Shown piece after piece: positions 2 to 46,869 of a stretch of DNA of 64,000 nt (its first letter is position 1; each line of letters begins with the position of its first letter). The notes beneath the pieces were generated by a model. That model was not told where the DNA came from, did not search any database, and saw only the letters and a list, made by a program, of their open reading frames with translations. A program made the position numbers and the translations under genes. Source of the stretch: Rosenbergiella metrosideri (GTDB lineage: Bacteria; Pseudomonadota; Gammaproteobacteria; Enterobacterales; Enterobacteriaceae); NCBI RefSeq assembly GCF_022602565.1, contig NZ_JALBCV010000011.1:1-64000 (forward strand). Direction: 5' to 3'.

Positions 2-3000
2 CAAAAAACGCGGCGCACGGCTAACGATGCCGCGATTGAATTACTTAACGAATTACCGATTGGTACAGATGGCAATACGCTGAGCGATGAACAACGTGCA
101 ATTCTGGCTAAGTACACTGGCGAAGGTGGGCTACAAGGCGAGGGCGGCAGTCAGTATGAATACTACACGCCTCAGTTTATGGCCGAGGGTATTTGGGACC
201 TAATGAAAGAGTACGGTGCGAGCGCTGGCCATGTACTTGAACCGTCAGCCGGAACGGGGATTTTCCAGGAAACTAAGCCGACTACCTCTATCATGTCGAG
301 CGCTGAAATCTCGCCGATTTCTGGACGCATTAACAAGCTATTGCACCCCGAAGATGAAGTGAATTTAGGGGCCTTTGAGAAGTTAGCCAGCGCGGTACCG
401 GATGGGACTTACGATCATGCCGTGGGTAACGTTCCATTTGGTGAAGGACGCTCCGGCTTTGCTCAACTGGATCCGGCTTATGCGCAAGAGAAGAACATCG
501 GTAATTACTTTGTACTGCGTACCATCGACAAGGTTAAGCCTGGCGGTTTAGTTGTGCTAGTGGTGCCCAACGGTATGACTGACAGCACTAAGAGTAAGAA
601 GCTACGCGATCAGGTATCACGCAAGGCTGAGTTTTTAGGCGCGCACCGTATGCCGTCCGGTACCTTTGCTGAGTCTGGCACCTCAACGGTTGTCGATGTG
701 TGGGTCCTGCGCAAGCATACCGAAGCCCTCAAGACGATCATTGACGACAGTACCGACAAAGTATTGAAGCAAGCCAACGTTTTATGGCCGGAATTTTTAA
801 CAGGTAAATGGTTCCTGCAGGACGGTAAAAAATTCGTGCACGGGGAAATGGAACGCACCGAATATCAAAACATGCTGGTGGTCAAAAAGGATGCGCAAAT
901 CACCGATGCTGCCATGAAAACCGCGTTATCACGCCGTTTTGAGTCCCGTATTGATTATGACGCGTTAGGCACCCCCACTAGCACATTTCAAGGCGCAAAA
1001 GAAGGAGATCACCGACTGGTCTCAGGTATTTGGCATGAATTTAACGGTGAAATGTGGGTTAAGCAGACGCAAAGCGACACAACCATTGTGGATGCAACGC
1101 AATTTGGTGCGCAGAATTACGCTGAGTTAAGTGGCCGGACTTCCTCAACTGAGGGGCTATTGAGCTTTAACGCCGAGCAGCTGCAGAACATCGCGCGAAG
1201 CTACCCGAATCTTTTAACCGAGCAAGTTCATGCCGTTGTTCAATTCGCTAACTCACAGCCACCGGCTTCCCGTGAGCGCGTTTTACGGGGTGGCATGATT
1301 GGCCTTGAAATCATTAAGGGAACCGACAGGGCGGCACTAGGACAAGACTCAGCCGAAATCTTTGCCGATGCCGCGAAGCTTGTTAGTGCTGAGTTTGATC
1401 AGTATGGCCGGTGCGACACGATTAAGGCTAAAAACCTTTCCGATCCGCGCTCCCGTGCCTGGTTAGCGTTTAAGGGCAACGTTTCACCCACTGGCGAAGT
1501 CTCTGATCTCTTGTCAGGTACGCTCGATACAGAGGCGGCTGTAGGCGTTAACTTTGCGGAACCTGAGCAAGTGATCGCGCACCTCTTTAGCCAGGTAAGT
1601 TTAACGCCGGTCACGCTTGATGACTTTCGGGCAAACTTCACCGGCGAGCTGCCGGCAGATGATGACGAGGCACTGACCTACCTCGCGCAATTTAAAGAAA
1701 TCGCCCTCGATGGCAACGGCAACTTACTGCCGATGACGCGCGCCACCTCCGGCGATGTACGCGGTCGTGCCAAAGACCTCTTGGCGCTGGCCGGCTCCGT
1801 GCCAGAAGGCCACCAGCAAGATAACTACCTACGCCAGATTGATGAAATCAACGCGAAACGTGGTCGTATCGAGCTGAAAAAAATCAAAATTAACCTCAAT
1901 GCGCGCTGGCTTGACCGCCGACTTATCCAGGAGTTTTTAGCGGATCAGGGTTATGACCAGTTCAAGTACACCACGCCGGATCTGGATATTCAGAATGGCG
2001 AGCTCTTATCGCCAGATGGGTATGCCGGCAAAGATGGCGTATTCACCGGCTACCAGATGCGTACCGTGGTTTCACCAAAAACAGGTGAAAAAGAGTTTAA
2101 GAAGGCCACTAATGCTAACGGTTTCCTGAATCAGTTAGAAAACTACCTCAACGGCGTGAAGCCGCGCGGCTCTAATGCAGGTAAATACCTGACCAAAATC
2201 GCTGCCATGGAGGAAAGCTTTAACGAGTGGATCGCCTCTCACGCCAGCGCCGAACAGGTTGAGGATGACTACAACGATGCGTTTAACGGCTATGTGGCGT
2301 TCGCGCACTCTGATGCGAGCCTGAACCTATCCGGGATTAGTGGCAAACGCATACCAATGAGCCACCAAAACGAGGAAGTGCGCCGCTTATCAGAAGATGG
2401 CCGGGGCATAATGGGCTTTGGTACCGGACTTGGGAAAACAACAACCGGCTTAGCACTTGAAGCGTATAACTTTGAGAATGGCCGGACGAAACGCACCGCG
2501 ACCGTAGTACCGAAAGCCGTCTATCAAAACTGGTACCACGAAGCGCGCGAGTTCTATTCGGATGAAGCTTTCGCCACGATGCTGTTTGTTGGCCTCGATG
2601 TGGTGACGGGGGATGACGGTAAACCATTAACCGCGCCGGTGCGTAACGAGAAAAACGAAATCGTCACGGATAAAGACGGTAATCCCGTTGTGCGTGATGT
2701 AGTTAAGGAGTCCTCAGCCGCCGATATTTTGCTACGCCTGAACCAGATCCCTACGTCTAACTGGCGAAACGTGATCCTGACTAAAGAGCAATTCGCCTCA
2801 ATTCCACTGCGCCAAGAGACTATTGAGGCGAACCAACAACAAGCCGTATTCGATGCGATTGAATCTGGCCGCGTTGATATTGGTAAATCCTCGCACCGTG
2901 AAGCGAGCAAGATTAACCGCCTCAAGGACAAAGCCGCCGATACCGGCAGCGCGAAAAAGCAGAACGTACCGTATTTTGAAGACATGAATTTTGACAGTGT

Positions 3001-6000
3001 GATCGCCGATGAAGGCCACAACTACCGAAACTCATTCTCTGCAGGGCGTGAAGCCGGACAATTGGCCTATCTGCCGACCTCTGCAGTCTCGCAAATCTCG
3101 CGTGACATGGCGGTGAAGTCGTCTTATCTGATGAATAAGAACAATGGCCGTGGTGTAGTCATGCTGACTGCTACACCGCTCGTTAACTCCCCGATTGATG
3201 CGTTTAACATGCTTTCGCACGTTATTCCTGCAGGTGAGTGGCAAGCGATGGGCGTTTATACGCCAGATGACTTTGTTAGAGTATTCGGTGAAACAGCGAC
3301 CGTGGATGTTCAGGCCATTTCAGGCGCTATCGAACAGAAACAGGGGCTAGTGGGCTTTAAAAACCTTGATGGCTTGCGTGGTATCTTCCACCGTTGGGCG
3401 TCAATCAAGACCGCTGCAGACGTTAAGGCTACCGTCAAAATACCGGACATTATCGAGAAATCCGTAGCGGTACCGATGACAGACGAGCAATCAGAAGCCT
3501 ATGAGGTGCTACGTCAACGGGCGACCTTGCTCAGTAGCGGCACGTCCCTGGTTAAAATGGATGATGGCGATACAGGCGTATCAAACTCTAAGCCTGACGA
3601 TGCTATTTTCTCAATTATCCGCGACATGGATAAGGTTTCACTGGATCCTGATTTATACAAAAACCAGATGCGTTTTCAGTTCAAGCCCGAAGACGCGGAA
3701 AAAGTTAAGGCAATTGTCGCTAAGTTACCGCTCTCAGCCGGTGGTAGTGATGACGAAGACGACAACGGCAGTGATAACCCTCTCAAACAGTCGAAAGAAA
3801 TCACGACAACGCTTACCGATAACGGGACCTACTTAGAGCTGACAGTCAGTGTCGAGCTCGAAAAAGAGGTACTCAAGGCCATTGCTGATGCAGGAATTGA
3901 TCTCAGTCAAGTTTCCCATCCAGTACCGCCTAAATACGCGGCCCTTATCGAAAACCTCAAAACCGGACTAGAAGACGGTAAGCAAATCATTTTCATTGAT
4001 GAAAAGACGCAGCACGGCAAATTACAGCGCATTATCTCTCAAGCCCTGGGAATGGATGCAAGCCAGATAGGGATTATCAATGCCACAACCGTTGCAAGCG
4101 CTGGTGGACCAAAAATCAAAGCCGTTAAGCAGCCGGTGGAGCCGAAAGAGGGCAAAAACGGCTACAAAGATGGCGCGTGGGAGAAGTATTACGCGGATAA
4201 GGCTCGTTATGAGGACTATATCGCCGCGAAAAGTGATGTAAGCCTGTCTGGCATGGAAGGTATCGCCGCTGATTACAACGAAGGCCGTACCCCTATCGTT
4301 ATCTGTAACAAGAAAGCGGAAGTCGGGATCAACCTTCACAAAGGGACCACGGACATTCACCATTTAACGTTCCCGTGGACACCGGCGAGTATTAACCAAC
4401 GTAACGGACGTGGCGCGCGCGTGGGATCGAGTAATGAATCTGTCCGGGCGCATTACTATTGCGGCAAAGGAACCTTTGATGACTTCCGCTTAGAGACGCT
4501 GCAGCGTAAAAAAGATTGGCTGACCACGGTAATGACGTCTGACGAGTCTGAAATGGCGAACGGTGACGCCGCAAGCCATGAAGAACGTGCCGTTATGCTT
4601 GCTGCAAACCCCGAAGAACGCCGCGCAATGCTTGCCAAGCAAAAGGCTGAGCGTGAAGCGGAGCAAAAGCGCGTAGCGACTCAGAACGCGACTAATGCCC
4701 TCAATACCTACCTAAAAGCCAGTAATGCAGCTTCAAGACCGATTGAGCAGCTACAAAGTGAAGTCGATACAGCCACCAAAGCGGTAGCTGATTTAGGGGT
4801 GGATCTCGAAAGAGCGCGTGAAAACCAGACGCACTACGAGGAAGCCATGAAGGATAGCCGCACCTCGCTATCTAGCTACTACCAAGGTGAGCGCCGCAAT
4901 GCGCGCCGGAAGTTCAAAGAAGTCAGCGCAAGCTTGCTAGACGCACAAGACACACTCAAGAAGGCAAACAATGCCCTTAAACGTGCGAAAAGTGCTGGTA
5001 GTGCTATCAAGCGCTCGCTCGCAGACGTGGAACGAGCTGTTAAAGATGGCGTATTAGATATTGACCAGGACGTGATTGATAATCCGGCCTCTTATACGCA
5101 GTTACCGGATGGACGCCTGGTTAAAGTCGGCAACTACTTTAAAACATCGGCCAATGAAGAAGGCGACATTACCGCCGTTGTTCGCCTAACAGCCATTTAC
5201 CCGGAAAAGGGAAGCTGTAGCGTTGAGGTGATCAATATCACAAGGTCATCTGGTTATTCCTACACAAATTGGGGACCAGGCGACACGCGCAATGTGACCA
5301 TGAGCAATTTAGGCGAGAAGGTCACTCTCTCAGAGAGTGATGCACAATTGCTTAAACGCGCGGCAATGGGCGTTCTTAGTACCGAGATTGCGAGTAGTTT
5401 TACCGCAAGTAAATTCGCTGAGCTCACTAAAGATGCCGGAATTAAGGTGAACGTGGTCCGTAACAGCTATTCATCCAGCGGTGCTGACTACTGGTTAGCT
5501 GATAAAGGAGGCAAGCTTGCGAGCGTTAGCATGTCCCGTGACACCCTCCAAGGGGATAACCTGCTTTACCCTGATTCGAGTAATGAGCAGTTAAAAACCC
5601 GTGTCGCTGAGTGGTACCACGATTCCAGTAATTCTAGTTATGGGCTTAAAGAGTTTCTTAAAGCGTTATATGGATCTAATTACCTAACTATCCTTCAAGG
5701 TTACGGCGCGCAAGCCACCATCAAAGACGTTGAGCCGGTTTACGATAAGTTCATCGCCAAGTGTGAGGAAAAATACCCTCAGTACGGCTCATTCTTCCAC
5801 ACTGACCTAGAACAAGGTAAGGCGTTCTACTTCACCAAGACCGATGCATTAAGTCGCTGGCAATACAGTATCTCTGATTACTCTGTCCGGGCAGAATTGA
5901 CCGCGAAATTCTCAAACGAGAAAGAGATCACCGAGTTTATCCGTACCGTTAAAGAGGCGCGCATGAAGGCGAAAGGCGATGCCCTGGCGCAAGCCGGTGC

Positions 6001-6766
6001 TGAGTACGGCCAAGCTGTCATTAAGGCGATTAATACCGTGTCACAGATGCAGATAAACAGCGCGCTATCGGACATGGTAGGGGTTGGCTATTACAACCTA
6101 ATCAACACGGCCAGAAACGACCAAGAGGCGATCCGCTCCGATATTCCACTGTATATCGCTACAGGGGTATTTTTCGGGGCTGTCATGCAATCAGAAGTCG
6201 ATGACGCGAAAACATGGAGCGCGATTACACAGCTAGTCACTTCCACCAGCCAAACTATCAACGCTCTAAGAGCCGGTAAGTATCAAGATTCTGGCCGCGT
6301 GGAAGGTGAAGCCGACATGACCTTTGATGAATGGATTAAGGCGTTAACGGGCGAGCTAACCGATGCAGAACGCGAAACTATTAAAACCAATGCCGCTAAA
6401 GCTGCCACCGTGGCAGACCAGACGGTTGAGGCTGAGGTGGATAGCCAACAAGCAGACGGTTACACGATTAACGTTGTGAAAAATGACCTCAAAGCGAGCG
6501 TTAAGTCTAAATTCCGTGGCCGTTTCTACACGCGCACCTTAAACATTGATGCCGGTAACGGCGTGGTGCTTGTGGATGTAGGCAGTGAGCCGGTACTTAA
6601 ACAGAAGGAAGTGCGAGAGCTATTAAAGACTCAATACGGCGCAATCTTTTGGGACTTCTCACAGAATCCGGTCGCCGGTAGTGACTTCAATATGCCAGCT
6701 TGGGTGATTGAAAAGAGCGTGGATCAGATACAACTAACAACCGCGATAAATCGCGTTAGAAAATAG
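2..6766 (+). CDS. darB: DarB-like antirestriction protein: N6-adenine methylase fused to a helicase (5' end outside the window)
   Basis: The frame is open from base 2, so the first methionine at 179 is internal and the true start lies upstream; at least 2,254 residues are present, about the size I remember for P1 DarB. Counting from the methionine at 179, a SAM-binding motif LEPSAGTG is at residues 20-27 and a catalytic NVPF motif at 84-87 (family NPPF/Y). A superfamily 2 helicase follows: Walker A in GFGTGLGKTT (nt 2416-2445), motif II DEGH (nt 3007-3018), motif III LTATPL and a C-terminal helicase motif ending in NQRNGRGARVG (nt 4393-4425). A coiled coil comes next, around nt 4600-5050. In P1, DarB enters the virion, is injected with the DNA and protects it from type I restriction. 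The role here follows from that family. Confidence 0.85.
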   Translation, partial: QKTRRTANDAAIELLNELPIGTDGNTLSDEQRAILAKYTGEGGLQGEGGSQYEYYTPQFMAEGIWDLMKEYGASAGHVLEPSAGTGIFQETKPTTSIMSSAEISPISGRINKLLHPEDEVNLGAFEKLASAVPDGTYDHAVGNVPFGEGRSGFAQLDPAYAQEKNIGNYFVLRTIDKVKPGGLVVLVVPNGMTDSTKSKKLRDQVSRKAEFLGAHRMPSGTFAESGTSTVVDVWVLRKHTEALKTIIDDSTDKVLKQANVLWPEFLTGKWFLQDGKKFVHGEMERTEYQNMLVVKKDAQITDAAMKTALSRRFESRIDYDALGTPTSTFQGAKEGDHRLVSGIWHEFNGEMWVKQTQSDTTIVDATQFGAQNYAELSGRTSSTEGLLSFNAEQLQNIARSYPNLLTEQVHAVVQFANSQPPASRERVLRGGMIGLEIIKGTDRAALGQDSAEIFADAAKLVSAEFDQYGRCDTIKAKNLSDPRSRAWLAFKGNVSPTGEVSDLLSGTLDTEAAVGVNFAEPEQVIAHLFSQVSLTPVTLDDFRANFTGELPADDDEALTYLAQFKEIALDGNGNLLPMTRATSGDVRGRAKDLLALAGSVPEGHQQDNYLRQIDEINAKRGRIELKKIKINLNARWLDRRLIQEFLADQGYDQFKYTTPDLDIQNGELLSPDGYAGKDGVFTGYQMRTVVSPKTGEKEFKKATNANGFLNQLENYLNGVKPRGSNAGKYLTKIAAMEESFNEWIASHASAEQVEDDYNDAFNGYVAFAHSDASLNLSGISGKRIPMSHQNEEVRRLSEDGRGIMGFGTGLGKTTTGLALEAYNFENGRTKRTATVVPKAVYQNWYHEAREFYSDEAFATMLFVGLDVVTGDDGKPLTAPVRNEKNEIVTDKDGNPVVRDVVKESSAADILLRLNQIPTSNWRNVILTKEQFASIPLRQETIEANQQQAVFDAIESGRVDIGKSSHREASKINRLKDKAADTGSAKKQNVPYFEDMNFDSVIADEGHNYRNSFSAGREAGQLAYLPTSAVSQISRDMAVKSSYLMNKNNGRGVVMLTATPLVNSPIDAFNMLSHVIPAGEWQAMGVYTPDDFVRVFGETATVDVQAISGAIEQKQGLVGFKNLDGLRGIFHRWASIKTAADVKATVKIPDIIEKSVAVPMTDEQSEAYEVLRQRATLLSSGTSLVKMDDGDTGVSNSKPDDAIFSIIRDMDKVSLDPDLYKNQMRFQFKPEDAEKVKAIVAKLPLSAGGSDDEDDNGSDNPLKQSKEITTTLTDNGTYLELTVSVELEKEVLKAIADAGIDLSQVSHPVPPKYAALIENLKTGLEDGKQIIFIDEKTQHGKLQRIISQALGMDASQIGIINATTVASAGGPKIKAVKQPVEPKEGKNGYKDGAWEKYYADKARYEDYIAAKSDVSLSGMEGIAADYNEGRTPIVICNKKAEVGINLHKGTTDIHHLTFPWTPASINQRNGRGARVGSSNESVRAHYYCGKGTFDDFRLETLQRKKDWLTTVMTSDESEMANGDAASHEERAVMLAANPEERRAMLAKQKAEREAEQKRVATQNATNALNTYLKASNAASRPIEQLQSEVDTATKAVADLGVDLERARENQTHYEEAMKDSRTSLSSYYQGERRNARRKFKEVSASLLDAQDTLKKANNALKRAKSAGSAIKRSLADVERAVKDGVLDIDQDVIDNPASYTQLPDGRLVKVGNYFKTSANEEGDITAVVRLTAIYPEKGSCSVEVINITRSSGYSYTNWGPGDTRNVTMSNLGEKVTLSESDAQLLKRAAMGVLSTEIASSFTASKFAELTKDAGIKVNVVRNSYSSSGADYWLADKGGKLASVSMSRDTLQGDNLLYPDSSNEQLKTRVAEWYHDSSNSSYGLKEFLKALYGSNYLTILQGYGAQATIKDVEPVYDKFIAKCEEKYPQYGSFFHTDLEQGKAFYFTKTDALSRWQYSISDYSVRAELTAKFSNEKEITEFIRTVKEARMKAKGDALAQAGAEYGQAVIKAINTVSQMQINSALSDMVGVGYYNLINTARNDQEAIRSDIPLYIATGVFFGAVMQSEVDDAKTWSAITQLVTSTSQTINALRAGKYQDSGRVEGEADMTFDEWIKALTGELTDAERETIKTNAAKAATVADQTVEAEVDSQQADGYTINVVKNDLKASVKSKFRGRFYTRTLNIDAGNGVVLVDVGSEPVLKQKEVRELLKTQYGAIFWDFSQNPVAGSDFNMPAWVIEKSVDQIQLTTAINRVRK

Positions 6767-13261: not shown

Positions 13262-14569
13262 ATGGCAAAGGTAGATTGGGACTTACATCGTGAACAATAC
13301 GCACAGTTACGCGCTGAGAAGGGCATAACTGCGCGTGAGTACGCTGAGTACCATGGCCTTAACCCTAATACGGCGCGCCGCGAACTAAAGAAAGCCGTCC
13401 TCAATGCTGAGGAAGTTGGCGTTATTCGTGATCAGAATAGTGATCAAAACAATGATCAAAAACGTGATCATAACCGTGATCAAAAGCGTAAAAAGGGCAA
13501 AAGTGATCACAATTCCGGTGACGCAGCCGCCAAGGGAAAAGGGCGAAAATCCAGTGATAGCAAGGTTTCAGGCGGTGATAGCGATTCAAGCGGAAGCGAA
13601 AACACGCCGCTTTCAAAGTCGCGCAAGAAAGATAACGCCAAAACCCAAAACGCGAAAATGATCACAAATGGCGAGGGTAAGGGCGAGCTGGTCCACGTTA
13701 AGAAGCCACGCGGCGAAGGTCGCCGTCACAAGCCTGGCAACGAAACGAGTATTAAAACTGGCGAACATGCCACGCCACGCCAGCAAGATTACATCGCCGC
13801 TGATGAAATGATGGAGCAAAGCATAGAAGCACTGGCCACCCAGGCGCTACGCGAATCCATTGCTCACATGCACTTAATAAAACGCTCCGTATCCCACGCC
13901 GTAGAGATATTGGACCAAGAAATTGAGGCCATCGAGCACCCGAATCCGGAAGATGACCTGGATCCATTCGGTACCCACCCGACCATTAAGAAAGCCAAGC
14001 TATTGATGGATGTTGGCTACCTACACATCGCGCATAACAACATGCTTAGCGGCGTGATAACCAGTACAAACAAGGTCGATTTAGAGGACCGTAAAGTTAC
14101 CCTGGCAGAAGCCAAGGCCGCTAACCTCGATGTTTCCGCGAATATCGTCAAACAGGCTATCGAATTTAGGGACAAACACGGTTGGTCAGACATTCAAACC
14201 GCCGAATATATTGAAACCTTTGGCGTGAAGGTCCCAGCCTCACTCATGGCCCGTGCAGCGAAAGCCATTGCCGATATTGAGCCAGAAGTAGACGACACCG
14301 GCACCGTTGACGAGGCTCAGTTAGATGCTGAGGCGCGTGCTTATGCACTCTCGAAGATTGAAGCTGCAAACTTTGTTCATAAGCGCCGTCAAGAGGTAGC
14401 TGCCCTGACTGATACGCTTGGCCTTGGCGATCACGATAGTACCGGCGAGCGTAAAGCCGGTGAGTTTGAGGAAGGGGAATCTGACCTCGATATAGACTAT
14501 GAAGCCACCAGCGACCTATACGGCGAGGATATACCGCCAGCCATAGCCATAGAAGGCGATGACGAGTGA
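13262..14569 (+). CDS. pacA: PacA-like small terminase (pac recognition)
   Basis: 435 aa. The N-terminus, about residues 3-45, is a helix-turn-helix (ITAREYAEYHGLNPNTARREL) matching the start of P1 PacA as I remember it (NLNPNTARR). A low-complexity, Asp/Lys/Asn/Gln-rich linker encoded by the pac repeats follows. The helical central region and acidic C-terminus ending near ATSDLYGEDI resemble the PacA end. In P1, PacA binds methylated pac and, with PacB, cuts the DNA to start headful packaging. Its last four bases overlap the pacB start (GTGA), so the two subunits are coupled. Confidence 0.85.
   Translation: MAKVDWDLHREQYAQLRAEKGITAREYAEYHGLNPNTARRELKKAVLNAEEVGVIRDQNSDQNNDQKRDHNRDQKRKKGKSDHNSGDAAAKGKGRKSSDSKVSGGDSDSSGSENTPLSKSRKKDNAKTQNAKMITNGEGKGELVHVKKPRGEGRRHKPGNETSIKTGEHATPRQQDYIAADEMMEQSIEALATQALRESIAHMHLIKRSVSHAVEILDQEIEAIEHPNPEDDLDPFGTHPTIKKAKLLMDVGYLHIAHNNMLSGVITSTNKVDLEDRKVTLAEAKAANLDVSANIVKQAIEFRDKHGWSDIQTAEYIETFGVKVPASLMARAAKAIADIEPEVDDTGTVDEAQLDAEARAYALSKIEAANFVHKRRQEVAALTDTLGLGDHDSTGERKAGEFEEGESDLDIDYEATSDLYGEDIPPAIAIEGDDE
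13429..13664 (+). other. Putative pac site: phased TGATCA repeats inside pacA
   Basis: TGATCA begins at 13429, 13441, 13453, 13465 and 13477, exactly 12 bp apart, then at 13504 and 13659. P1 pac also lies inside pacA and is built of TGATC(A/G) hexamers on both sides of the cut, whose Dam methylation is required for cleavage. The cut would fall between 13510 and 13658. Confidence 0.8.
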
Positions 14570-16074
14570 GCGGTGCGCATAAGGTAAAATCCGTCACAAC
14601 GGATCCCCGTTGGAGAGACCTCGTTAGGCAGTACCGCTACAATTGGGCTGAGGCTATCGTTCTGCTATTCGGTATGACGCCGACCTGGCAGCAAGATGAA
14701 ATCATTGACTCAGTACAAGAGACAGGAAGCCGTACAACGGTAACGTCTGGACACGGTACGGGTAAATCATCCCTTACGGCCATGATGCTACTTATCTACA
14801 TGATCATGTTCCCTGATGCCCGTGTCGTTCTGGTGGCCAACAAAATCGCCCAGGTGCGCACCGGTGTATTCAAATACGTGAAAATGTTTTGGGGTAATGC
14901 GATAAAGCGCCACCCCTGGCTACAAAACTACTTTGTCCTCACTGATACAATGTTTTATGAGCGTTCACGTAAAGGGATATGGGAGGTTTTGTGTAAAGGC
15001 TATAGGCAAGGTAACGAGGAATCGCTTGCAGGTGAACACGCCGCGCATATCCTGCTAATTCTCGATGAAGCGTCCGGTATCTCTGATAAAGCCCAAAGTA
15101 TTATGCGTGGTGCGCTGACAGAAGTAGATAACCGCATGTTAATGCTCTCTCAGCCCACACGGCCAACCGGCTATTTCTACGAATCCCATCATAACCTGGC
15201 TAAGTCACCTGATAACCCACACGGGATCTGGACGGCTATCTGCTTAAACAGTGAAGAAGCGCCTCACGTTACTATGCAGTTCATCAAAGAAAAATTGATG
15301 GAGTACGGCGGTCGGGACTCCCTTGAGTACATGGTGAAGGTTTTAGGGCGCTTCCCTGACGTTATCAACGGCTTCCTGCTTGGCCGTGACGAGATAGATC
15401 GTGCAGCGCGCCGTAAAGTGTACTTAGAGCGTGAATGGGGATGGATAGCCACCGCTGACGTGGGGAACGGTCGTGATAAGTCGGTCCTTAATATCTGTAA
15501 GGTGTCTGGCCGGCGTAATAAGCGGCGTGTCGTAAACCACAAAATGCTAGAAATGCCCGGAACAATGAAGCCAAAAGAGTTTGCGCACTTCATTGCTCAG
15601 GAATGTACCCAGGAGCGTTACCCGAATATTCGTATCGCGGTCGATAGTGATGGCATCGGTGCGGCCACTGCAGATGAACTTCAATCTATGGGGATCTCCG
15701 TTACTCGTATCAGATGGGGCAAACCGATGTTTGCGAAGGTCGATAAAGAGCGCTTTGTGAGCCAACGTGCGTTCGCTAACTTTGCGGTAAGGGATGCTAT
15801 TCAATCTGGCCGTCTGCGTCCTGACAGCTCACAGGCAACGGCTGAGCAGGGTTCTAAGATACCTTTTATGATGAATGAGTCCGGCCAACTCTGCATGATT
15901 AAGAAAGAAGTCATGCGTAATAAGATGAATATCAAGTCACCGGATAGGTGGGACACCTATTGCTTTATGTGGCTGGTGGATTATGTACCGGCATCGGAAG
16001 CGATGGGCGAAGATGTTGAGGACTTACGGAATAAGGCGGCTGAGGTGCTAGAAGTAGAGGGCTTAGAAATTTAA
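14566..16074 (+). CDS. pacB: PacB-like large terminase (ATPase-nuclease)
   Basis: 502 aa from GTG. Walker A is TSGHGTGKSS (residues 60-69), Walker B is LLILDEAS (163-170), and a coupling SQPTRPTG motif follows near 190-200. The C-terminal RNase H-like nuclease has WIATADVGNG and IAVDSDGIGAATAD, with acidic metal-binding residues. This is the motor that cuts concatemers at pac and pumps DNA into the prohead. It directly follows pacA, as in P1. Confidence 0.9.
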   Translation: MSGAHKVKSVTTDPRWRDLVRQYRYNWAEAIVLLFGMTPTWQQDEIIDSVQETGSRTTVTSGHGTGKSSLTAMMLLIYMIMFPDARVVLVANKIAQVRTGVFKYVKMFWGNAIKRHPWLQNYFVLTDTMFYERSRKGIWEVLCKGYRQGNEESLAGEHAAHILLILDEASGISDKAQSIMRGALTEVDNRMLMLSQPTRPTGYFYESHHNLAKSPDNPHGIWTAICLNSEEAPHVTMQFIKEKLMEYGGRDSLEYMVKVLGRFPDVINGFLLGRDEIDRAARRKVYLEREWGWIATADVGNGRDKSVLNICKVSGRRNKRRVVNHKMLEMPGTMKPKEFAHFIAQECTQERYPNIRIAVDSDGIGAATADELQSMGISVTRIRWGKPMFAKVDKERFVSQRAFANFAVRDAIQSGRLRPDSSQATAEQGSKIPFMMNESGQLCMIKKEVMRNKMNIKSPDRWDTYCFMWLVDYVPASEAMGEDVEDLRNKAAEVLEVEGLEI

Positions 16075-17184: not shown

Positions 17185-17948
17185 TTTACGCCTTTAGGCA
17201 AAAGAGAAAAAAGTAACAATTACGGTAAGAATATATTATAAGGAATCTAAAATAAATTTATTTCTTTATGCTAATTGTAATACAGATTAAACGAAAATCG
17301 TTTGCTTTCAAGGTTTAGAATAATCCTAAAATTTCTTTGAAAATGTTTTATAAATAATTGGTAATGTTAACGTTAATGTAAGTCCCTAATAACCAGAGGA
17401 TTACAAAAAAAACTAATCATATCAATGCTTATACTGTTTTGAACACTCTTTAGGCTGCTAAGATCTGCAACATCTAAAGCATTATAATGGAGCAACATAA
17501 TAACAATGCTAATATAATCCAGATTTCTGTATAGCATGTAATTTATCGTGATAACTTAATTGTACAATTAATAAAATTAACCCTAAGAAGCAATTATATA
17601 CATAGCGTTACAACTGTCTTACTTAAGTGATCAGGTGTTGCAATGCACTTAGGAATGATCATGTAAATGAAACGGTAAAAATTCGTGATCAAAATGACCA
17701 ATCCTTTTCCGCTTTCCCTCAAAAACACCACCAGCACTGAGCTATTGAGAAAATAATCAGAAAATGATAACTTTAGATAATAACAGTTATATAAAGTTAT
17801 AGTGTGATCACTGGATAGATGTACACTTGATTTTGATCACCAACTATGGCAGGGATTTTTGACGCGTTTACGTGAAAAGTTACGGGTTTCTACCCCCAAC
17901 ATAAATAAAGATTCACGTAGCGTTACCAAACGGGAAATAGAATAAATT
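17185..17948. promoter_or_regulatory. Long intergenic region between c1 and the recombinase
   Basis: 764 A+T-rich bases without a convincing gene. It should hold the c1 promoter on the left and the recombinase promoter(s) on the right. TGATCA occurs at 17628, 17656, 17686, 17805 and 17834, and the lox-like site is at 17768..17799. A CTAATAA at 17388 is a weak operator match. An incoming C1 auto-operator is expected here but I cannot fix its position. Confidence 0.6.
17768..17799. other. lox/rox-like recombination site
   Basis: Two 14-bp arms, TAACTTTAGATAAT and GTTATATAAAGTTA, are inverted around a 4-bp AACA centre and match at 12 of 14 positions. The 32-bp size and TAACTTTA.ATAA arms are almost those of rox, the site of the phage D6 recombinase Dre. 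The site lies 150 bp upstream of a Dre-like recombinase gene, as loxP lies upstream of cre in P1. Confidence 0.85.
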
Positions 17949-18974
17949 ATGAGCCAATTACCTACAATTCGTACAATTAACATGCCGGCGCACTTATCCC
18001 ATGTCACGGCCGAGGATGTTGAGAGCAATTTACGGAATTTCTTTAGAGATAAAGAAGGATTCTCGCCTAACACACTCAAGAGTCTATTAAGCGGTGCAAA
18101 ATTGTACGCGAACTGGTGTGTTGAGCGTGGCCATAGTTGGCTACCCGTTGATCCTGATAACTGCCGTGAGTATTTAATATGGATGAAAGACGTTAAAGGC
18201 AATTCTATTAATACTGTTAGGACGCGTCTTGCCATGTTGAATATGCTGATGAAAATATCTGGCTTGCCGGCTGTAAGCATGGATAGTGTTGTGAGCTTAG
18301 GGATGAAAAAGCTAAACCGTGTCGCGGCGACCAGTGGTGAGCGCGTAGGCCAGGCGGTGCCGTTTCACCTTGCCGATCTGCAGGTGGCCGACAGGCTCTA
18401 TAAGCAATTAGGAACCGAGTCGGCATTGAGGAACCGCGCATTTTTGTTTGTGGCCTACAACACCATGTTGCGTATGTCCGAGATCGGGCGACTACGAGTG
18501 CGTGACCTGCAGATAAACGGTGACAACGTAACGTTATTCGTGGCCTATACTAAAACCAATACCGTGACCGAAACCATTAAGCAGCTGTCAGAGAAAACCG
18601 TTAGCGCCCTTTTTGATTGGCTCAAGGCGTCTGGCCTCAGTGCGCACCCGGATGCGATGATGTTTTCCCAGGTATATAAAAACGGTAAAGCTAAGATAGC
18701 TGATAAGCCAATGAGTAGTGTGGCCATAGAGCAAATCTATAAAGACACTTGGCAATTGATGGGTAAAGATGATGAACCGGCGAATAAAGGTCGCTATGCG
18801 CAATGGTCCGGCCATAGCTGCCGCGTTGGTGCCGCTCAAGACCTGAATACGACAGGTGCATCACTGCCTCAAATCATGGCCGAAGGTGGTTGGAAGAACA
18901 CGGAAACTGTTATGCGCTATATGCGTAACTCAGGATCGATCGTGAGTGCCGTTACTGAAATGATGAAATTTTAA
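17949..18974 (+). CDS. cre: Cre/Dre-type tyrosine recombinase
   Basis: 341 aa against 343 for Cre and 342 for Dre. The catalytic set is complete: R175 (NTMLR), K202, H289 and R292 (GHSCR), W315 and nucleophile Y324; four of these have the same numbers as in Cre. Blocks AFLFVAYNT, MRMSEI-like and NKGRY..W(S/T)GHS.RVGAA follow Dre more closely than Cre. In P1, Cre resolves plasmid dimers and circularises incoming DNA at loxP. The partner site here is at 17768..17799, and five Dam sites precede the gene. Confidence 0.92.
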   Translation: MSQLPTIRTINMPAHLSHVTAEDVESNLRNFFRDKEGFSPNTLKSLLSGAKLYANWCVERGHSWLPVDPDNCREYLIWMKDVKGNSINTVRTRLAMLNMLMKISGLPAVSMDSVVSLGMKKLNRVAATSGERVGQAVPFHLADLQVADRLYKQLGTESALRNRAFLFVAYNTMLRMSEIGRLRVRDLQINGDNVTLFVAYTKTNTVTETIKQLSEKTVSALFDWLKASGLSAHPDAMMFSQVYKNGKAKIADKPMSSVAIEQIYKDTWQLMGKDDEPANKGRYAQWSGHSCRVGAAQDLNTTGASLPQIMAEGGWKNTETVMRYMRNSGSIVSAVTEMMKF

Positions 18975-19026
18975 AAATATAATAAAGTTATAACCCTCTC
19001 TTGATTAATTTATAGTTTACATACAG

Positions 19027-40635: not shown

Positions 40636-41550
40636 ATGTCACCTTTTTTTAAAAGCGCGCAAGTTTATAGCTTGCGCCGTAATGATGTCATTGACACCAA
40701 GGAAATTGAGAATCAACTTGCGTCACAAGCCTTTAAGCCTTGCGCCTCGCAAGATAAGGAATCTGTAGGGTGGACGCCGATTATCGGGGAGCTATTTGCG
40801 CTGGTTCAAGGCAATAACTTGCTAATCAAGTGGCAGCGTGAAGAAAAAATACTCCCTTCAACGGTCGTCAAAGAAGAAGTGGCCAAGCGCGCTGCAGTGC
40901 GTGAAGAACAGCAAGAACGCCGGCTGAAAAAGACGGAGCGTGACGCGCTAAAAGATGAAGTCATTCACGCCTTTATGCCTCGTGCCTTTACCCGTCAAAA
41001 GTTCGCCTTTGTATGGATTGACCTCGACAATAGCCGTGTAGTGGTTAATGCCAGTAGTGCTAAGCAAGCAGAGAACATCTTAGCCTTACTACGCCGTACC
41101 ATTGGTTCGCTGCCGGTGGTCCCTTTCACGCTTGAATCCCCTATGTCACTGACCGCTAAAGAGTGGTTAGCCTCGCAAGAGCTCCCTGCCCTATTCCATA
41201 CGGGTGATTCGGTCCGTCTTTCCGGCGTGGTGGAAGGTACCGGCAGTGTCGCTTACACCAAAAGCGAGATATTCAGTGATGAAGTCGTTACCAATATCAA
41301 CAACGGGAAAATTGTTGCGGCAATTGGCCTGAATTGGAACGAGCGGATCAGCTTTAAAATTGATGATGGGCTATCAATTACCGGCATTAAATTTGCCGAC
41401 ATTCTGACCGAGCAAAACAACGATATTAGCCGTGAAGACGTTGCTATCCGCTTTGATGCCGACTTTCTGTTATTCCGCTCAGAGTTTAACGAGATGTTTT
41501 CGGCGCTAGTGGCCGCATTAGGTGGTGAGGCTGTGTATGCCGCAAGTTAA
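40636..41550 (+). CDS. rdgC: RdgC-like recombination-associated protein
   Basis: 304 aa, the length of E. coli RdgC (303). Start at ATG 40636; an earlier in-frame ATG crosses the operator. Family blocks: QLASQAFKPCASQD, KEEKILPSTVVKEE, LKKTERDALKDEV, FMPRAF, NILALLRRTIGSLPVVPF, and DADFLLFRSEFNEM. RdgC forms a ring on DNA and restrains RecA. It is likely to regulate phage or plasmid recombination, and appears to be under C1-like control. Confidence 0.9.
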   Translation: MSPFFKSAQVYSLRRNDVIDTKEIENQLASQAFKPCASQDKESVGWTPIIGELFALVQGNNLLIKWQREEKILPSTVVKEEVAKRAAVREEQQERRLKKTERDALKDEVIHAFMPRAFTRQKFAFVWIDLDNSRVVVNASSAKQAENILALLRRTIGSLPVVPFTLESPMSLTAKEWLASQELPALFHTGDSVRLSGVVEGTGSVAYTKSEIFSDEVVTNINNGKIVAAIGLNWNERISFKIDDGLSITGIKFADILTEQNNDISREDVAIRFDADFLLFRSEFNEMFSALVAALGGEAVYAAS

Positions 41551-43255
41551 GCAAAGCTGGCATGGTGCTCATTATCATGGCACTCCCATATGGGGTGGCG
41601 GCTCCCGTGTGTTGACTCACGCAGTTTCAGGAGTTGGCGCATTTGTTTCTTTTGCGCGTCCAGATCAAATTAAGCTGTGCTTTCAATCGGCATCTAGCGT
41701 GGCCATAGATAACGGGGCGTTTTCAGCATGGAAGCGTGGTATTAACATCGATTGGAACGACTATTACACGTTTGTCGAGCAATACTACAGCGACCCCAAG
41801 CTGAAATTTTTCGTTATCCCTGATGTGATAGAAGGTGGCGAGGCTGAGAATGATGCGCTTATAGAATCCCTGCCAAGCCATTTACGTGGGAAAGCTGCCC
41901 CTGTATGGCACCTTCACGAAAGCATTGACAGGCTAGTTAAGCTTTGTAGTGAGTGGCCATTGGTCTGCTTTGGATCTTCAGGGCAATACGCCACGATAAG
42001 AACAAAGGAATGGCATAAGAGAATGAGAGAGGCATTTAGTGCCATCTACGTTGAGCGTAATCTTAAAACGAAAGTTCATGGCCTACGTATGCTCGATGGT
42101 AGGGTTTTGGGGAATTACCCGCTATCCACTGCAGACAGCACGAACCTAGCGTGTAACGTGCCTAAAACCAATGTTAAATACCCTGGACTAACCCGCGCCG
42201 TAATGGATTCTAATTATGTAAAAGGCTTGAGCGAAAGGGACATTAAAGATTCTGTGCTTATGCATCGTTGCGCAGTTTTGAAATCTGCCATAGAAAGCGT
42301 CAATCCACCTACACGGGAAGCGTGGGTGTCAGATTTCAATGCAGCGGAAAGCGCCCGGACCAAGCTAGTGAAATTACCGGTAGGTGGCGGCACTAAAAAA
42401 GCAGGTGCCGGCAGCGAAAGGCAGCAATTTACGAAGCCATTCCTAAAATGGGCAGGCGGTAAGTTCCAGCAATTACCGGACATTCTGCCGCTATTGGAAG
42501 GCCACCAGCGGCTTATCGAGCCTTTTGCTGGTGGAGGTTCAATATTTCTTAATGCTGGCTTTAAAACGGCTCTCATTAACGATAATTGTTCGGACCTGAT
42601 TAATACCTATCAGCAACTCAAAGAGAACGCGCACGACATTATCACGAGAGCCTTTCGCTTATTTCAGCTCTACAACGGGCAAGCGCCATATCTGCGAATC
42701 CGCGAGAAGTTTAACGCCGGGAAATACACCCCGTCTGAACGTGCGGCCGTGTTTATCTACCTAAACCGCCATTGCTTCAACGGGCTTATGCGTTACAACG
42801 CTAAGGGCGAGTTTAATGTGGGCTTTGGTAAGTATGATGCGCCCTACTTTCCCCTGGCTGAGCTCGAAAACTTTCTCGGTTGTTGTGAAGGCATGACGTT
42901 TAGTTGCGAGGACTATTCGACCGTTATTGAACAAGCCGGTGCCGGTGATGTTGTGTTTTGTGATCCGCCCTATGAGCCAATGCCGGATAAGGAAGGATTC
43001 ACTCAATACAGTAACGGGACCATCTTTAAGATGGCAGACCAAGAAAGGCTCGTTAAATACGCCCTAGAAGCCCACCAGCGCGGCGCAACAATCATCATAA
43101 CTAATAGCGGTGCTGAGTCGATTAAAGAGCTATACCGTGCCAATGGCTTTGATATTCGGGAAGTATTAGTAAAGCGTAGCATGTCGAGTAAGGCAGGGAC
43201 GAAAGTAAGAGCGAAAGATGTGATCGCGGTGCTTGAGTCGTTGATACCGTTTTAA
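41537..43255 (+). CDS. Fusion: DpdA/TGT-like domain plus Dam-type adenine methylase
   Basis: 572 aa from ATG 41537 (GAGG upstream), overlapping rdgC by 14 bases. Residues 1-270 resemble phage DpdA-like proteins of the tRNA-guanine transglycosylase superfamily: HGTPIWGGG (14-22), DNGAFSAW (58-65), IPDV (94-97), WHLHES (124-129), GSSGQY (146-151), HGLRMLD (181-187) and ADSTN (199-203). Residues about 300-572 are a D12-class N6-adenine methylase: FLKWAGGK (302-309), SAM site LIEPFAGGG (326-334) and catalytic CDPPYEP (475-481), expected to methylate GATC. DpdA inserts 7-deazaguanine bases into DNA. The queuosine-pathway genes it would need are not in this window. Confidence 0.8.
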   Translation: MPQVKQSWHGAHYHGTPIWGGGSRVLTHAVSGVGAFVSFARPDQIKLCFQSASSVAIDNGAFSAWKRGINIDWNDYYTFVEQYYSDPKLKFFVIPDVIEGGEAENDALIESLPSHLRGKAAPVWHLHESIDRLVKLCSEWPLVCFGSSGQYATIRTKEWHKRMREAFSAIYVERNLKTKVHGLRMLDGRVLGNYPLSTADSTNLACNVPKTNVKYPGLTRAVMDSNYVKGLSERDIKDSVLMHRCAVLKSAIESVNPPTREAWVSDFNAAESARTKLVKLPVGGGTKKAGAGSERQQFTKPFLKWAGGKFQQLPDILPLLEGHQRLIEPFAGGGSIFLNAGFKTALINDNCSDLINTYQQLKENAHDIITRAFRLFQLYNGQAPYLRIREKFNAGKYTPSERAAVFIYLNRHCFNGLMRYNAKGEFNVGFGKYDAPYFPLAELENFLGCCEGMTFSCEDYSTVIEQAGAGDVVFCDPPYEPMPDKEGFTQYSNGTIFKMADQERLVKYALEAHQRGATIIITNSGAESIKELYRANGFDIREVLVKRSMSSKAGTKVRAKDVIAVLESLIPF

Positions 43256-46011: not shown

Positions 46012-46869
46012 CTAATAAGCTATGAGCACGGCTGTTTTGTCTGAGACCTTGTACCAGCAAAGCCCTACTTTAAAATTTGATGCTTCTTGGTCCAAGGCGT
46101 ACACCCCTTTGAACCTAAACAAGTTAAACCCAAGTGAATTTTTAGACTTGGCAAAAACAATCCGCTTTGTCCTTTTATCAACGTTCACAGTCTTGTTGAA
46201 ATGAATATCAAAATCATCCTGGGTGCCGCCTCTTTTCTTCTCAAATATGTATTGCTCGTCAGTCGATATACTGTTATCCCAATCAGCATGATTGATCAGC
46301 ATAGGCCACCAGATTTCGGTATCATGCTCAGTTGGATGCTTTTTTCCACCGCTACAGAAGCTCTTATGGTTGAAACCAAAAAGCGCTGTTATATCGACAA
46401 CCTTACGCAAACACACGTCATCTTGGGCATAGATATAACCGTCCTTAATTTTGTTTTTAACATTTAAAATGTCGTCGAACTCCCATTTGGGGATCGGACC
46501 GGCTGATTGCAGTTTTTGCTCGATATAGGCTACGCATTTATCAATTTCTGTATTGAACGCAAAAATATCCTCAATGACAGGGATTCGATAAAACTCATGG
46601 CCAGTAGCATTTACAATGTCGGCTTGGCGTTCTGCATCTTGTTTAACCCGTTTGAGGTGATAGGGTTCATCAACTTCAATGTGTAATCCGATTGCAGGAA
46701 AATAGAGGTCGGTCAGGGATCGCCTTGTGCCAGTGGTAATGTGCTGCTGGGTAATAAATTGCACATCAAAACGATTCAGTCGATGCAAAATCCTAGATAA
46801 CACGTATTGCTCATGTTTCTTATGCTTGGCTTTATATATCTGCTCAATGCTGTAGGTATAAGTGTTCAT
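46012..46869 (-). CDS. Putative modification-dependent endonuclease
   Basis: 285 aa. Residues about 25-100 are a Vsr/PD-(D/E)XK-like nuclease: LTDLYFPAIGLHIEVDEPYH with Asp, Glu-x-Asp-Glu in place of the usual E-x-K, then AERQADIVNATGHEFYRIPV. Residues about 165-285 contain RIVFAKSKNSLGFNLFRFKGVYALD, like the SRA/PUA-type modules that sense modified cytosine in AbaSI/PvuRts1I-type enzymes. Together they suggest a nuclease that recognises modified DNA. It follows the parA system and is flanked by A+T-rich repeats, as a cargo gene would be. Confidence 0.55.
   Translation of the reverse strand: MNTYTYSIEQIYKAKHKKHEQYVLSRILHRLNRFDVQFITQQHITTGTRRSLTDLYFPAIGLHIEVDEPYHLKRVKQDAERQADIVNATGHEFYRIPVIEDIFAFNTEIDKCVAYIEQKLQSAGPIPKWEFDDILNVKNKIKDGYIYAQDDVCLRKVVDITALFGFNHKSFCSGGKKHPTEHDTEIWWPMLINHADWDNSISTDEQYIFEKKRGGTQDDFDIHFNKTVNVDKRTKRIVFAKSKNSLGFNLFRFKGVYALDQEASNFKVGLCWYKVSDKTAVLIAY

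Follow-up and report, generated by a model that had tools for sequence, protein, structure and literature searches.

A lox-type site as the probable crossover partner of a Cre-type recombinase on a P1-like phage-plasmid of Rosenbergiella metrosideri

Introduction

A 34-bp sequence of the lox type, located in Rosenbergiella metrosideri 148 bp upstream of a gene encoding a Cre-type tyrosine recombinase, is very probably the crossover site of that enzyme. Together they make a new natural counterpart to Cre-lox and Dre-rox, within a type of system that is already known. Genome editing relies routinely on enzymes of the Cre type, and only a small number of naturally occurring pairs with distinct specificity have been put to use; the locus is a tool candidate with a combination of specificity residues not seen previously. 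No paper naming the enzyme was found in the open-licence literature, and Jelicic et al. 2023 is the study likeliest to overlap. The main features are collected in Table 1, where positions are those of the window, that is, the whole 64,000-nucleotide stretch of DNA that was analysed.

Table 1. Features of the recombination locus and its surroundings
Feature	Position	Strand	Basis
PacA-like terminase subunit	13262..14569	+	phrog_1711 terminase, E 1e-81
Seven TGATCA hexamers within pacA	13429..13664	+	probable pac site; compare hexamers at P1 pac cuts
PacB-like large terminase	14566..16074	+	phrog_2 terminase large subunit, E 9e-44
C1-repressor-like protein, 364 aa	16090..17184	-	30% to D6 C1 over 259 aa, E 2e-41
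Five TGATCA (Dam) hexamers around site, 3 left and 2 right	17628..17839	.	hexamer count
Lox-type recombination site, 34 bp, 13-8-13	17767..17800	+	repeat geometry, family comparison, single genome copy
Left arm ATAACTTTAGATA	17767..17779	+	1 difference from rox arm, 3 from loxP arm
Spacer ATAACAGT, 8 bp, asymmetric	17780..17787	+	comparison with relatives
Right arm TATATAAAGTTAT (read outward, ATAACTTTATATA)	17788..17800	+	1 difference from rox arm, 2 from loxP arm
Cre-type tyrosine recombinase, 341 aa	17949..18974	+	alignment, Pfam, catalytic residues, predicted fold

Geometry of the site

The arms of the site are complementary at 12 of 13 positions, the sole mismatch (G against T) falling at arm position 10. 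An earlier, sequence-only reading had placed a repeat of 32 letters at 17768-17799, with 14-bp arms around a 4-bp centre; its letters and its 12 complementary positions out of 14 were confirmed, but the 13-8-13 geometry, in the register of loxP, fits better. The 14+4+14 division was rejected on two grounds: spacer position 7 varies within the family while positions 1 and 8 are always A and T in the 46 family sites chosen by complementarity (see below), and the annotated rox, extended by one base on each side, matches the loxP register. A search of the 764-bp intergenic stretch brought up no better inverted repeat, as every other 13-8-13 repeat reaches 9/13 at most and the longer inverted repeats nearby are weaker (for example, one of 21 nt at 71%). 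Across the whole 3.34-Mb genome, exactly one lox-type site is present at three mismatches or fewer, and no second site for excision or inversion was found at that threshold. A half-match at 18977-18990 was considered as a second site and discarded, being one of 24 such matches where 25.7 are expected.

The recombinase and its relatives

The Cre/Dre-family enzyme that the earlier reading had put 150 bp from the repeat is encoded by a complete gene, and the catalytic positions of the Cre family are all filled (R175, K202, H289, R292, W315 and Y324, the full R-K-H-R-W-Y set). Over the alignment, the protein shares 37% identity with Cre and 42% with Dre, the latter value being 44.7% over the tblastn match, and Pfam detects domains PF02899 and PF00589. 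The structure model (pLDDT 80.8, pTM 0.66) predicts a two-domain Cre fold spanning the full length of the protein; its best structural match is Cre (Z 31.0, rmsd 4.7, 312 residues aligned), which tops both structure lists, and Foldseek ranks Cre and its variant Tre ahead of the next family.

In collections of phages (29 records) and plasmids (4437 records), all matches of the recombinase lie below 60% identity. Closer relatives are an enzyme of Rosenbergiella collisarenosi (77%) and one encoded on a 92,174-bp IMG/VR contig (98%). In a quick tree, the window and R. collisarenosi enzymes fall in a 12-row clade with Dre, Pantoea plasmid and Leclercia enzymes, where an SH-aLRT of 97 applies to the clade as a whole and the branching inside it is without resolution. 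The enzyme is best regarded as a clade-mate of Dre, Panto-type and Leclercia enzymes, yet not a Dre: it groups with Dre, but lacks R/P/K at Cre positions 43, 259 and 263, and its site has neither the arms nor the spacer of rox. As in Cre-type systems, a 34-bp 13-8-13 site adjoins the gene.

A site that recurs across the family

The association of site and enzyme was surveyed in a set of 232 sequences, to which one source search contributed 80 of its 139 loci. Six loci were dropped by name (duplicates, partial or own-genome pieces), and the survey kept 198 full-length recombinases (tblastn E ≤1e-40, at least 300 aa), which form 66 clusters at 90% identity. When complementarity alone was scored, 46 of the 66 clusters had a 13-8-13 repeat with 11/13 or more in the 450 bp upstream of the gene; downstream, the figure was 3 of 61, and among control stretches from the same loci it was 23 of 1178. 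Under a second criterion, aided by the consensus and ignoring arm positions 8-10, a lox-type site was found in 56 of the 66 clusters, at 116-418 bp from the start codon, and none was found in the remaining 10. In the 46 sites chosen independently of the consensus, ATA ends both arms in 45, and the spacer starts with A (position 1) and finishes with T (position 8) in every one.

The arms are also conserved relative to their surroundings. Among 31 close pairs, arms differ at 18 of 806 positions and flanks at 344 of 1860, roughly an eightfold lower rate of change in the arms. The 98%-identical IMG/VR relative has identical arms and the spacer ATAACACT (positions 513-520 of locus L198), and the 77%-identical R. 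collisarenosi locus keeps 25 of 26 arm positions around the spacer ATAAGGAT. The earlier proposal that the repeat is the cognate site of the neighbouring recombinase is therefore well supported: the layout recurs throughout the family, the arms are kept in the 77% relative while the flanks have diverged, and phage D6 has the same order of c1, site and recombinase. Catalysis by the encoded enzyme and cognate recognition of the site are what we infer from this.

The survey yields a set of 56 natural pairs of recombinase and site (one for each 90% cluster) that can serve to test rules of recognition. It also supports the 13-8-13 reading of rox-type sites, a question that PMC4777119 leaves open. 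Regarding the polarity of the sites relative to the gene, the spacer has T2 without A7 in 33 of 56 and the reverse in 4 of 56, and in the six of 56 sites whose arms are unequal at position 10 the gene-proximal arm has T every time, both being raw counts that ignore kinship.

Specificity and compatibility with known systems

The new pair can be compared with four others. Dre/rox of phage D6 has the same c1-site-recombinase order, arms that each differ by one base, a protein of 342 rather than 341 aa and membership of the same clade, but the enzymes share 42-45% identity, the spacers differ at 5 of 8 positions, and K/V/Q with S44 here stand against R/P/K with D44. The Pantoea plasmid enzymes, which we infer to be related to Panto/pox of Pantoea sp. 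aB, resemble the new one in identity (45-47%), in the order pac-c1-site-recombinase and in the T at right-arm position 10, and differ by A at left-arm position 10 and by residues R/P/K and D44. Cre/loxP of P1 shares the Cre fold, the catalytic residues, the 13-8-13 site and the presence of a single site near pac, whereas identity is 37%, the arms are three and two bases off, the spacer is unlike GCATACAT and Cre has R259. The R. collisarenosi 8.8A locus (77% identity, 25/26 arm positions, an equal distance between site and gene) has its own spacer, C at left-arm position 10 and no TGATCA cluster in the counted region.

Positions 43, 259 and 263 of Cre switch the choice between lox and rox, according to PMC7438526 and PMC4957104. 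At positions 43, 259, 263 and 44, the recombinase has K/V/Q/S, Dre has R/P/K/D and Cre has K/R/G/M, so that by alignment its specificity residues match neither enzyme. Of the recombinase columns in the 56 pairs, that of Cre residue 259 shows the strongest covariation with arm position 8: C occupies arm position 8 in both arms for 14 of 15 enzymes with R259 and for 1 of 41 others, and the window pair combines V259 with T at that position. This association agrees with the published biochemistry without proving it, because it rests on three changes in the tree. It was not accepted as a proven code, because a sign test needs more than three changes; trait b, in 200 random pairings of three pairs, changed in the same direction 1.8 times on average and never in the opposite one, with a best p of 0.5. 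A code linking residue 44 to arm position 10 was likewise set aside, as it is confounded with clade.

With respect to compatibility, spacer and enzyme have to be considered separately. Spacer positions 2 and 7 are critical for compatibility of rox sites (PMC4777119). Between rox and the site at 17767-17800, 5 of 8 spacer positions are unlike, position 7 among them, so joint recombination with rox would be unlikely. Dre and Panto, which share 52% identity and have arms one base apart, recombine each other's sites (PMC4957104), and activity of the new enzyme on rox is therefore quite possible. The suggestion of the sequence-only reading that this is a new heterospecific pair is thus supported for the spacer, which is not expected to pair with the rox spacer, and is weakened for the arms, which stand one base from those of rox, the distance at which Dre and Panto cross-react.

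The stronger claim would be of a new orthogonal pair, in which the enzyme is inactive on rox, pox and loxP, and Dre, Panto and Cre are inactive on the site at 17767-17800, with the spacer mismatch in addition. The unusual residues at Cre positions 43, 259, 263 and 44, the first three of which set the choice between lox and rox in the sources just cited, and the G/T at arm position 10, which is A in rox, speak for such orthogonality; it is nevertheless doubtful, given the one-base distance of the arms from rox and the fact that S44 enzymes are found with G/T as well as C/T at arm position 10, three bases in all, suggesting tolerance more than strictness. A broader proposal, namely orthogonality to Cre/lox, Dre/rox and Panto/pox together with reading of arm positions 8-10 by K43, V259, Q263 and S44 and with incompatible spacers in 98%-identical relatives, is unlikely as a whole. 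If it were true, related phage-plasmids residing in one cell, with identical arms but either G or C as the seventh spacer base, would not fuse at their sites.

The 98% relative has the arms of the window and, at position 7 of its spacer, C where the window has G (compare 17780-17787); two elements this similar may be incompatible with each other, position 7 being critical in rox. A faster-than-neutral change of the spacer, as a mark of self and non-self, was not supported: at positions 2-7 of the spacer there are 23 differences in 186, and in the flanks 344 in 1860. Within the 14 of the 31 pairs whose flank identity is at least 0.83 (counted by hand), the values are 6 of 84 for spacers and 58 of 840 for flanks, and the spacer drifts at roughly the pace of its surroundings.

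Alternative readings of the repeat

The repeat could instead be an operator or promoter element, bound by the C1-like repressor or another regulator, and no crossover site at all. Its location between c1 and the recombinase gene, a region that in P1 holds C1 operators and the promoters of cre, would suit such an element, but its geometry is that of loxP, the invariant A and T at the spacer ends recur in every family site chosen by complementarity, and the equivalent position is occupied by a proven or annotated lox in P1 and rox in D6, which makes this explanation very improbable. A dual role, as operator and crossover site, may exist.

The complementarity of the arms is by itself notable yet not overwhelming, because the 764-bp intergenic stretch has only 30% G+C: 12/13 at 13-8-13 was reached by 4 of 2000 simulated sequences, and the observed score by 4 of 500 simulations with free geometry (arm 11-15, spacer 4-10). 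Such figures are what an origin by chance in AT-rich DNA has in its favour, but its probability is negligible, as the lox/rox consensus (ATAACTT-N3-ATA-N8-TAT-N3-AAGTTAT, up to three mismatches) matches once in the window and never in 100 shuffles of it, and the arms stay conserved among relatives whose flanks change.

The replicon and the proposed role of the site

The window is part of a contig of 91,050 bp that is circular, because its ends overlap by 77 bp. The gene order is pacA-pacB-c1-site-recombinase, and the hexamer cluster in pacA lies 4.1-4.3 kb from the site, compared with about 4.0 kb between pac and lox in P1. The C1-like protein matches the NCBIfam model phage_rep_C1 weakly, well under its cut-off. 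The contig also encodes a Ref-like nuclease, a tail sheath protein and head morphogenesis proteins, as well as plasmid functions (a Rep3/RepE-like initiator, a ParA-like protein and ParM) and a Dam-family methyltransferase domain. By its gene content and order, the replicon can be assigned to the P1-like phage-plasmids, as a circular element of about 91 kb. A match to the recombinase at E <1e-60 occurs in 14 of 295 genomes of the host family, its own included, and is absent from the sole same-genus genome among those listed; this is as expected for a mobile element.

In P1, a single lox near pac resolves dimers and circularises terminally redundant packaged DNA. By analogy, the recombinase encoded at 17949-18974 would have its native crossover site at 17767-17800: four protomers would occupy the four arms of two site copies, and strand cleavage and exchange, by way of Y324 and a Holliday junction, would take place inside the 8-bp spacer. 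Two substrates can be envisaged, both as for P1 lox: two sites on a plasmid dimer, which would be resolved into monomers, and two sites on a packaged headful, whose linear DNA is terminally redundant and would be circularised on entry. Both roles are likely, and the explanation that joins native site, mechanism of strand exchange and roles is held with high confidence.

TGATCA clusters and neighbouring genes

No TGATCA clusters on the 91-kb contig are denser than the two at 13429-13664 (pacA) and 17628-17839 (around the site), and in P1 the regulatory region of cre is annotated as containing Dam sites. Beside the family sites, TGATCA occurs 33 times in 16,698 bp (1.98/kb), against 231 times in 440,525 bp of control (0.52/kb). 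As a rule of the family, however, TGATCA near the site was rejected, as no more than 7 of 56 clusters reach two hexamers (25 of 1412 control stretches do), and none was found in the counted region near the site of D6 or of R. collisarenosi.

Some other genes of the window are worth recording. A 577-aa protein (41522-43255) has a Dam-family adenine methyltransferase domain at residues 305-569 and matches phrog_887, labelled queuine tRNA-ribosyltransferase, over its N-terminal half (E 1.9e-84); Pfam and NCBIfam detect the methyltransferase only, and the product is possibly a fusion protein. On the minus strand, 46012-46869 encodes a PvuRts1I-like endonuclease with an SRA domain; such enzymes cleave DNA that contains modified cytosine, and this one possibly excludes other phages. 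Finally, 179-6766 encodes a 2195-aa protein with SNF2/helicase matches, at a place which we take to be comparable to that of the very large helicase-like Dar protein of P1.
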